This document shows, piece after piece, positions 13,494 through 15,986 of a stretch of 32,380 bases of DNA. The position numbers and the translations under genes are program-made. The stretch's first letter is position 1, and each line of letters starts with the position of its first letter. The stretch comes from Nitrosotalea sp. (lineage in GTDB: Archaea > Thermoproteota > Nitrososphaeria > Nitrososphaerales > Nitrosopumilaceae): the NCBI GenBank assembly GCA_025449485.1, contig JANWJG010000056.1, forward strand, positions 1 through 32,380, in the 5' to 3' direction. The notes below the pieces were generated by a model. That model did not search any database, was not told where the DNA came from, and worked only from the letters and a program-made list of their open reading frames with translations.

Positions 13494-14222
13494 TTACTTG
13501 TTGACTGCATACTGTTCTGGCAGGTCAACTAGAATCAATTCCGTTGGCACCTCGGCCCTAATTACCACATTGCCTTCTTTAGATATCATTGCAGCATCCC
13601 TTGTCTGCATGGTATCATTTCCTAGTTTTATTTTACCATCTATTACAAACAAGTATGATTTTCTTCCAGGTCCCAACTTGTGTTCCACTTGACCCTGTGG
13701 AGTAAGTGTTGCCAAGTAAAAGGAGGCATCTTGGTGTATGTGTAATGCATCAGGATTTGGACTATTTTCAGATACCACTACTGGTACGAGTTTGTTTGTC
13801 CTGTCTTTTTTTGTAAACTTTTTTTGTTCCCAAGATGGTGCAAGTCCTTTTTTATTTGCAAATACCCACATTTGCAAAAGCCGCAATGGTTTTTCTTTTG
13901 AATGGTTTGATTCTGCATGCATTATTCCAGAGCCTGCAGTCATCCTTTGGACCTCTCCGGGATATATCACACCTTGATTTCCTTGGTCGTCTTTGTGTTC
14001 TAGTTCACCATCTATGACATAAGTTATGATCTCCATGTCCCGATGAGGATGAAAGTCAAATCCAGTACCAGGTTGTATTTCATCATCATTGAATACTCGC
14101 AGCGGTCCAAAGTTCATCTTCTCAAGATTCTGGTACTCGGCAAATGAGAAATGATGGAACGTTGTAAGCCAATCAGTCTCGTTGCGATAGTGCTCGTCTG
14201 CCCGTATTATTTTGGCATTCAT
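13494..14222 (-). CDS. Pirin family protein (bicupin)
   Basis: FGPLRVFNDDEIQPGTGFDFHPHRDMEIITYVIDGELEHKDDQGNQGVIYPGEVQRMTAGSGIMHAESN: canonical pirin HxH...E...H signature. Confidence 0.94.
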   Translation of the reverse strand: MNAKIIRADEHYRNETDWLTTFHHFSFAEYQNLEKMNFGPLRVFNDDEIQPGTGFDFHPHRDMEIITYVIDGELEHKDDQGNQGVIYPGEVQRMTAGSGIMHAESNHSKEKPLRLLQMWVFANKKGLAPSWEQKKFTKKDRTNKLVPVVVSENSPNPDALHIHQDASFYLATLTPQGQVEHKLGPGRKSYLFVIDGKIKLGNDTMQTRDAAMISKEGNVVIRAEVPTELILVDLPEQYAVNK

Positions 14223-15160
14223 TTTGTTTCCAAGTCCATTTTCTTTTTGAACACCTTGGACACATTGCGTATCGTCACGGTGCTTATACCTGATGCCTTG
14301 GCAATCTTGTCCTGTGTAGCGCTCTCACCATTCATCATCCCTGATAGAAATAGTGCAGCAGATGCAAGTGACACAGGGTTTTTTCCATCTGCAATGCCTT
14401 TTTTCTTGGCCATCTCAACGATATCAAGTGCATCTCTTTGTGCCTTTTCACTGAGGCCTACAGAGGTGCCAATCTTGGACACTAGTTCAGATGGGTTCAA
14501 CGAATCCACCTGTAACTCAAGTGCCTTGACAAATACCCTATAGTGCCTTGAGAGATTCTTGAAGGATATGTTTCCAGCACTTGATACATCCTGTAAAGTT
14601 CTTGGTACGCCTGATTCCCTGCATGCAATATACAGTGCAGAAAGTATCATACCAGAAATTGTTCTTCCACGAATTATATTTTTGGTCAGTGCTTTTCTAT
14701 ACAGATATGCCGCGCGTTCAACTATTGCATCAGAGACATCAAGTTTTGGTTGGATTGCACCCATGATGACAAATGCAGAGCGCAGATTTCTTTCAGCAGA
14801 GCTTGACTTGCTTCTATTGTCCCAAGTTCTCAGTCTGTTGAAGGTATACTTCATGTATGTCGATATTGAATTTCCAGATGCATCACGATCAGTATTTCCA
14901 ATTACAGTTGACAAACCCTTGTCATGAATTGACAGTGCGGAGCCAAGCCCAGTTCGTGTGCTGTTATTGTAATCTTCTGCGGAAAGTGATTTCTGATCTG
15001 GTCCAGAGTCCTCTACCTTGTCTGCAAGAATCATTCCACATCTTGCACATACAATCTCGCCGCGAATGTTATCAGTCACAAGTGGTCCATGTGACTCACC
15101 TTCGTGCAAGTATGTCTTGCTTTTTTCAAATACTAATTTCTGTTGTTTAGTAGATATCAT
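14219..15160 (-). CDS. tfb: Transcription initiation factor TFB (TFIIB homologue); ORF track start 15181, ATG at 15160 preferred
   Basis: Zinc-ribbon-like RGEIVCARCGMILADKVEDSGPDQ, B-finger-like region, two cyclin folds (RAAYLYRKALTKNIIRGRTISGMILSALYIACRESGVPRTLQDVS; AIADGK NPVSLASAALFLSG; SGISTVTIRNVSKVF). Confidence 0.94.
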   Translation of the reverse strand: MISTKQQKLVFEKSKTYLHEGESHGPLVTDNIRGEIVCARCGMILADKVEDSGPDQKSLSAEDYNNSTRTGLGSALSIHDKGLSTVIGNTDRDASGNSISTYMKYTFNRLRTWDNRSKSSSAERNLRSAFVIMGAIQPKLDVSDAIVERAAYLYRKALTKNIIRGRTISGMILSALYIACRESGVPRTLQDVSSAGNISFKNLSRHYRVFVKALELQVDSLNPSELVSKIGTSVGLSEKAQRDALDIVEMAKKKGIADGKNPVSLASAALFLSGMMNGESATQDKIAKASGISTVTIRNVSKVFKKKMDLETK

Positions 15161-15177
15161 TTGTATATCTAATATAC
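15161..15177. promoter_or_regulatory. Palindromic operator candidate TT-GTATAT-CTA-ATATAC abutting the TFB start codon
   Basis: 15-bp inverted repeat (15163-15177); 17-nt identical copy at 15738-15754; TATA-like TTTAAATA (minus strand) lies about 25-35 nt upstream of the TFB ATG. Confidence 0.65.
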
Positions 15178-15272
15178 ACAAGATAGTATTTAAAATGTAT
15201 AGTGAAGTTATAGATATCAGATTAACTTTTGTAAAGTCATTTTCAGGTTTTTAATTAACGGACAGGCAGGAT

Positions 15273-15692
15273 TCATACAGCCTCGATAGGCTTGGAATAG
15301 ATCTCTTTTAGGACTCGCGGTTTTCCGTCCTTGAATACATCCTTGGAACAATACTGCATTGAGAAAGCAGCCATGGATTCAAGTACGGGGTTTAGCGCTA
15401 GCCCCTTTTTTGTGATAACGTACTCTATCTTGACTGGCGTTCCAGCATAGATTCGCTTCTCAATTATGCCGTTTTTTTCCATTTCCCGCAATCGTGCAGA
15501 CAAGGTCTTGGGGTTTATCCCTTCTACAGAATCCAGGAACTGGTTGAATCTACTCTGCCCAAGCTTTGTCATGTTGCGTAAAATGTGTACCGTGAATTTT
15601 TTTCCAATAATTTTAAAAGTATTATCAATAGGACATGCCTTTAACGAGTCAAGCAAAACTTTGCATTCTTCTTCTTTCAACTTACCATACAC
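15273..15692 (-). CDS. HxlR-family winged-helix transcriptional regulator
   Basis: CPIDNTFKIIGKKFTVHILRNMTKLGQSRFNQFLDSVEGINPKTLSARLREMEKNGIIEKRIY...VEYVITKKG: classic HxlR fold signature. Confidence 0.92.
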   Translation of the reverse strand: MYGKLKEEECKVLLDSLKACPIDNTFKIIGKKFTVHILRNMTKLGQSRFNQFLDSVEGINPKTLSARLREMEKNGIIEKRIYAGTPVKIEYVITKKGLALNPVLESMAAFSMQYCSKDVFKDGKPRVLKEIYSKPIEAV

Positions 15693-15737
15693 TCACTTGA
15701 TAACTGTAATATCACTTTCTAATTTATAAGCTTACCT

Positions 15738-15754
15738 TTGTATATCTAATATAC
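15738..15754. promoter_or_regulatory. Second copy of the palindromic operator candidate TTGTATATCTAATATAC, upstream of the HxlR gene and of micro-ORF 15763-15849
   Basis: 17/17 identical to 15161-15177; next to TATA-like TTATAAG at about 15723-15730. Confidence 0.65.
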
Positions 15755-15762
15755 GAAATAAC

Positions 15763-15849
15763 ATGACATCCCATACACAACACAAACACCAATGGACGGT
15801 CAGATCAAACCATTGGCAATGCGATACATGTGGAAAGACATACGGATAA
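15763..15849 (+). CDS. Possible 28-aa micro-protein with one CxxC (MTSHTQHKHQWTVRSNHWQCDTCGKTYG)
   Basis: ATG-to-TAA read directly; starts 8 nt after the palindrome; CDTCGK knuckle plus His residues; too short for the supplied ORF track. Confidence 0.35.
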   Translation: MTSHTQHKHQWTVRSNHWQCDTCGKTYG

Positions 15850-15863
15850 CCTTTCCCACTTTT

Positions 15864-15986
15864 TTATTCAAGCGGTCTTGACTTGTAACAATCAGAACAA
15901 ATCTCAACTGTCTTACCGTGCTTTTTTGAATAATGTGCACCAAGTTCTCGATGTAAACGACACAGAAAACAGAGTCCAAAATTCAT
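15864..15986 (-). CDS. Small protein with two CxxC knuckles (zinc-ribbon-like); ATG at 15986 preferred over ORF track 16058
   Basis: MNFGLCFLCRLHRELGAHYSKKHGKTVEICSDCYKSRPLE, CxxC-x23-CxxC. Confidence 0.5.
   Translation of the reverse strand: MNFGLCFLCRLHRELGAHYSKKHGKTVEICSDCYKSRPLE

Follow-up and report, generated by a model that had tools for sequence, protein, structure and literature searches.

The closest working analogue of the regulator described here is YodB of Bacillus subtilis, a sensor of quinones and diamide whose reactive pair consists of Cys6 and Cys101 and whose operator at azoR1 reads TACT-N7-AGTA (PMC8063818). For a redox regulator that represses the gene of a general transcription factor, the closest conceptual precedent is the RosR-tfbB pair of Halobacterium salinarum: RosR is a bacterial-type redox regulator with a palindrome near gene starts, including its own, it represses the TFB (transcription factor B) gene tfbB, and oxidant relieves its binding at most loci (PMC4287449). 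HxlR of B. subtilis is a formaldehyde-responsive activator with the crosslink pair Cys11-Lys13 (PMC7835342). As for TFBs, the parts of the literature on which we draw give 4-11 copies per mesophilic ammonia-oxidising archaeal genome (PMC7554672) and report that the dominant TFB of N. maritimus changes in biofilm (PMC7554672, PMC12448741); neither text mentions HxlR, and in these parts no regulator for an individual TFB is described. Our literature search returned no paper joining HxlR, transcription factor B and Thaumarchaeota, and none joining pirin and HxlR.

The locus considered here lies in a 32,380-nt stretch of Nitrosotalea sp. DNA (contig JANWJG010000056.1), the whole of which is referred to below as the window. 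Its TFB gene, one copy of such an expanded set, shares the locus with the following features.

13494..14222, minus strand: pirin-family cupin protein (PF02678, E=6.7e-36); the TFB-pirin order is conserved
14219..15160, minus strand: TFB paralogue, 313 aa, ATG start; PF00382 found twice, start conserved
15160..15177, no strand: predicted operator O1, 18-nt copy with palindromic core at 15163-15177, abutting the TFB ATG
15186..15194, minus strand: TATA-like box of TFB, TTTAAATAC, read from the sequence; conserved
15218..15236, minus strand: second conserved element of TFB-type promoters, a GTTAATCTG half with a degenerate partner, from promoter comparison
15273..15680, minus strand: HxlR/DUF24 regulator HxlR1 (PF01638), 135 aa, TTG start assigned by comparison; C16 and C111 conserved
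15722..15730, no strand: TATA-like box, ATTTATAAG / CTTATAAAT, read from the sequence; conserved in orthologues
15737..15754, no strand: predicted operator O2, core at 15740-15754, in the divergent HxlR / micro-ORF promoter; spacing to HxlR fixed in orthologues and paralogues
15763..15849, plus strand: gene for a 28-aa CxxC micro-protein (MTSHTQHKHQWTVRSNHWQCDTCGKTYG), starting 8 nt past O2; conserved, with third-position changes dominant

The original prediction offered, as the simplest model, that one palindrome, present in two identical copies at TFB and HxlR, is the operator through which HxlR controls both genes. A scan of the whole window finds TTGTATATCTAATATAC exactly twice, at the predicted positions 15161-15177 and 15738-15754, where shuffled sequence yields 0.01 matches; no third copy turns up in the window even when up to two mismatches are allowed. 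The repeat had been given as 17 nt long; both copies are there, but their identity runs one base further to the left, making it 18 nt (15160-15177 and 15737-15754). As predicted, the core GTATAT-CTA-ATATAC is a perfect inverted repeat with 6-bp arms in both copies, and GTATATNNNATATAC, the core, is confined to O1 and O2 in the genome to which the window belongs (G000; 110 contigs with 1.49 Mb in all, 85% complete; this and all other genome-wide motif counts are pattern searches). The predicted placements are accurate too: O1 touches the minus-strand TFB ATG at 15160, and O2 lies upstream of HxlR, some 10 bp ahead of its TATA-like box and, on the other side, 8 nt from the ATG with which the plus-strand micro-ORF begins (15763). 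An RNA hairpin as the function of the palindrome was rejected because O2, being upstream of the HxlR TATA box, stands outside the HxlR transcript.

Is this arrangement conserved? Across the Nitrosotalea group, which in a scan of named genomes includes N. devanaterra (LN890280.1) and many MAGs, the motif kept at both places is TATA-N5-TATA(-SAAA), with the consensus GTATAGTAACTATAC. The expectation that the motif would be conserved beside HxlR and TFB orthologues therefore stands for this looser form at both genes but fails for the exact GTATATNNNATATAC spelling, which is present in just 5/37 genus genomes and was dropped as the conserved motif. Close HxlR orthologues occur in the same genus and in other genera of the family, and about 20 loci have HxlR followed by TFB on the same strand. 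Measured from the reference codon of HxlR, the site sits at -61 in nearly every HxlR1 locus; counted from the codon of the conserved cysteine, this position is -119. On the TFB side, it abuts the ATG in 28 of the 29 distinct orthologues, and the last 10 nt before that ATG carry a mean of 1.68 bits per base, compared with about 0.2 at -110 to -80. The 29th orthologue (L030) and a further one (L118, left out of the 29 since it has no ATG) keep the site with a changed start codon. In two loci (L031 and L032, read in the longer loci L117 and L118) TFB has been relocated and oppositely oriented and has retained its own site. Site conservation is owed in part to the common descent of one locus.

The motif is also rare. 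Searching 250 family genomes, we find 87 matches to TATABTNRMTATASAAAKG as against 2 for the reversed pattern, which answers the concern that it might be common genome-wide. Most of these matches (73/87) lie within 200 bp of a match to HxlR1 or to its paralogue HxlR2; the remaining 14 include three ahead of TFBs, and most of the others are followed by redox-type genes. An extra match in the window's own genome (C23:4824) falls within the 3' end of an ORF and was treated as chance. One might argue that a motif made of TATA-like strings in an AT-rich genome reflects nothing but chance repeats or ordinary promoter elements. The shuffle expectation, the control count and the fixity of position over many species refute this explanation, to which we assign next to no probability, and leave operator status very well supported by comparative sequence evidence.

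Sites and regulator are, moreover, inherited together. A TFB orthologue with the site is present in 28/28 genus genomes with HxlR1 and in 0/9 without it, a count that ignores kinship and includes some incomplete MAGs; 25 of the 28 were identified by pattern and three (G007, G023 and G035) by inspection (L022, L030 and L118). Seven of the nine (G001, G008, G016, G018, G020, G034 and G036) have neither HxlR1 nor HxlR2, no TFB orthologue was found in them, and their best TFBs are at most 51% identical; the other two (G029 and G015) have HxlR2 alone, with no TFB orthologue below 1e-95. If the motif belongs with HxlR, it should be lost where HxlR is absent, and it is: among 11 genomes lacking a close HxlR, the shorter pattern TATABTNRMTATASAAA gives two matches (in G039 and G049), both inside ORFs and hence rejected as operators.

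We also observed a Nitrosopumilales MAG (L151:458 onward) in which the TFB next to HxlR is broken after about 30 recognisable codons, apparently by a frameshift, with operator and promoter retained. The window's TFB itself has two cyclin-like repeats (PF00382, two stretches); at its N-terminus the second CxxC is there (CARC), the first cysteine pair is not seen (HEGESHGP), and the match to Zn_Ribbon_TF scores 20.3 bits, under the cutoff of 29. Several relatives have a single cysteine left at the position of the first Zn-ribbon pair.

What binds the palindrome? HxlR1 contains an HxlR-like winged helix domain (PF01638, E=2.8e-22, 78.8 bits, cutoff 20.8). It probably starts at TTG 15680, which is conserved; GTG 15692, considered as an alternative start, is not. 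A PDB search with an HxlR profile ranks YodB first (E=3e-21), ahead of HxlR, HypR and QsrR. YodB also comes first, among top matches that are DUF24 proteins, in a Foldseek search with a model of HxlR1 whose mean pLDDT is 73.6 and which, at <50 for residues 11-18, is weak around C16. Two cysteines, C111 and the C16 that forms part of a Cys-Pro motif, are present without exception in 22 sequences. By position alone, C16 is the conserved N-terminal cysteine at the redox-sensing position; in our reading of the alignment its Cys-Pro motif corresponds to that of YodB, shifted by one residue. C111 aligns with the C-terminal cysteine of YodB, so that the two residues correspond to Cys6 and Cys101. In most of the homologues examined from Nitrosopumilus, the first cysteine is retained and the second is missing. 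In two loci of Nitrosotalea sp. FS (L121 and L140), part of HxlR seems to be duplicated in tandem on either side of an undetermined base, an arrangement that may be an artefact of assembly.

HxlR is the likely binder given this company of site and gene, but which HxlR? HxlR2 is about 60% identical to HxlR1 and has no adjoining TFB, and its clade, including a paralogue in the window's own genome (C27:6203-6604), carries the site at the same spacing as HxlR1. The recognition-helix region, NPKTLSxRLxEME, is nearly identical in the two proteins, which as binders are not distinguishable by sequence; Nitrososphaerales homologues with PKVLTERLREL have no site at the HxlR1/HxlR2 spacing. Imagine, then, that HxlR2 were the main binder, or that the paralogues competed, HxlR1 being a target and not the controller. 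The shared site and helix would fit, as would G029 and G015, which retain HxlR2 and a site without HxlR1 or TFB. However, four complete or near-complete genus genomes (e.g. G011, G012, G014, G022) combine HxlR1 and TFB sites with no HxlR2 above the search threshold, and HxlR1 must therefore suffice there, making this scenario unlikely. Less likely still is an unrelated regulator acting on the palindrome to control HxlR and TFB alike, with HxlR merely a member of the regulon. Comparative data do reveal the conservation of a site and not the identity of its binder, and a second conserved element beside TFB points to other regulators at work; yet 73 of the 87 sites lie beside HxlR, spacing is fixed at both paralogues and HxlR-less genomes have no site outside ORFs.

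That second element, TTAC-N5-GTTAAYYTGNT, lies upstream in TFB-type promoters and forms a clear inverted repeat, CAGATTA...GTTAAYYTG, in several genes. It is found in pirin, SDR and DUF2798 promoters as well, and it is specific: 11 genomes give 11 matches against 1 for the control, the majority of them at TFB or at genes of the regulon. A further regulator is its probable ligand, and its presence at the TFB promoter makes HxlR unlikely as the sole input.

Returning to HxlR as the binder, the layout of the promoters suggests what binding would do. O1 lies between a TATA-like element (15186-15194) and the TFB ATG, as originally proposed, and given the position of that box it would cover the expected leaderless start. 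At O2 the order towards the divergent micro-ORF is the same (TATA, operator, ATG), and, seen from HxlR, the operator immediately precedes the TATA box; the box at 15722..15730 possibly serves both genes. The micro-ORF had been called possible. Its relatives keep 28 aa and the CxxC, with changes mainly at third codon positions, a pattern that marks it as a real gene divergent from HxlR. A second small protein (40 aa, two CxxC, 15864-15986, minus strand) is ~70-85% conserved in close relatives. In archaea, the general pattern is for repressors to bind on the downstream side of the pre-initiation complex and for activators to bind on its upstream side (PMC4287449); combined with the geometry of O1 and O2, this makes repression the likeliest effect of the site on both TFB-pirin and the micro-ORF.

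The pirin start overlaps the TFB stop (ATGA, 14219-14222), and the two genes are therefore probably in one operon. Among named loci, the gene directly behind TFB is pirin in 10 and azoR in 8; in three others (L145, L146 and L148) azoR is divergent from HxlR and TFB follows azoR. The azoR product matches FMN-dependent NADH-azoreductase/quinone oxidoreductases. Elsewhere, the site precedes genes for pirin, FMN reductase, SDR, thioredoxin, zinc dehydrogenase and DUF2798 proteins, all candidate regulon members. The TFB-azoR operons, the HxlR/azoR divergent pairs and the sites at FMN reductase and pirin would be compatible with control of azoreductase or other quinone-detoxification genes by HxlR. 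Several site-bearing genes share, in addition, the flanking promoter and first codons (MIV..KSN), which suggests that a promoter-operator-start cassette was duplicated among regulon genes. At one locus (L102) the DUF2798 protein under the same operator has a tail, RTFKHLFEKPPEIVK, that is almost identical to the tail of some HxlR proteins (RTYKQVFEKPPEILK, L026); shuffling may have occurred there. Beside HxlR2 in another (L063:1149-1490), a Cys-rich protein of ~113 aa is divergently encoded with the operator in between, and the arrangement of its cysteines suggests a function related to metals or redox.

Redox or electrophile sensing by HxlR is probable. The sensed compound is something we infer from homology and gene company, which leaves room for a different scenario: HxlR would indeed act through these operators but respond to something other than electrophile or thiol stress, such as a metal or an aromatic acid, and TFB would be a redundant passenger that directs no programme itself. 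A metal signal would be in keeping with the CxxC micro-protein and with the Cys-rich protein encoded next to HxlR2. Set against this are YodB as best match with both cysteines kept, and the company of AzoR, FMN reductase, pirin and thioredoxin; we consider the scenario doubtful, if by no means far-fetched. Formaldehyde sensing of the kind known from B. subtilis HxlR was rejected: the protein belongs to the same family and the N-terminal cysteine is conserved, but C16 is followed by PID, so that the Cys-x-Lys pair and its crosslink lysine are missing, and the genes around it encode quinone and redox enzymes.

Overall, we favour, as the probable reading, an electrophile-responsive, autoregulated, YodB-like HxlR repressor whose operator is the palindrome and which controls a TFB-plus-detoxification operon. 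Binding, repression, induction and a TFB-specific programme would then run as follows. HxlR1, the neighbouring two-cysteine HxlR/DUF24 repressor, and probably also HxlR2, would bind the palindrome. A dimer at O1, between the TATA box and the leaderless TFB start, would prevent initiation at the TFB-pirin operon, or at the TFB-azoR operon of sister species. At the HxlR locus, O2 separates the TATA box from the start of the gene that points outward, which is the micro-ORF in the window and azoR in some relatives; as it also immediately precedes the TATA box of HxlR, the regulator would control its own gene too. Modification of C16 and C111 by electrophiles, quinones or disulfide stress would release the operator, turning on detoxification enzymes together with an extra TFB that could redirect transcription initiation; a TFB-dependent programme is possible. 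The original interpretation is supported: it named the results that would refute it, and those that can be computed came out in its favour. It could not see the YodB-like two-cysteine sensor, pirin or AzoR behind TFB, the further genes with the site, or the second element.

Compared with the systems introduced above, the unit resembles YodB in its palindromic operator of similar length and its link to an AzoR-type quinone reductase. It differs in acting at archaeal promoters, in having a general transcription factor among its candidate targets, in the pirin that the window's lineage has where AzoR would be expected, and in its operator letters: the box TACT-N7-AGTA is not matched by the consensus, so that HxlR1 may work like YodB without sharing its DNA specificity. 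With RosR-TfbB it shares a redox-type regulator and a palindrome at the regulator's own gene and at a TFB gene, here by prediction. Whereas RosR is broad and bifunctional, with >100 genes, we find a small, co-inherited, linked HxlR-TFB unit with the operator on the TFB ATG, in ammonia-oxidising archaea. Our literature search found no paper describing a linked HxlR-TFB-detoxification unit in these organisms, which is not proof of absence.

More tentatively, and with somewhat less than even confidence, we suggest a self-contained, sigma-factor-like archaeal stress module in which a thiol-based repressor holds back a dedicated TFB, a chemical signal brings that TFB into play at a distinct set of promoters, and the duplicated promoter-operator-start cassette adds new genes to the regulon. 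Of the multiple TFBs of ammonia-oxidising archaea, one is described here whose predicted on/off control can be identified, for which electrophile, quinone or thiol stress is a likely signal, and for which the candidate targets are few enough to list. The idea of TFBs as alternative-sigma-like factors thereby becomes directly testable outside haloarchaea, in a group that includes N. devanaterra. A well-supported operator for an archaeal HxlR family would, in turn, make regulons readable from genome sequences even where the organisms themselves are difficult to manipulate.
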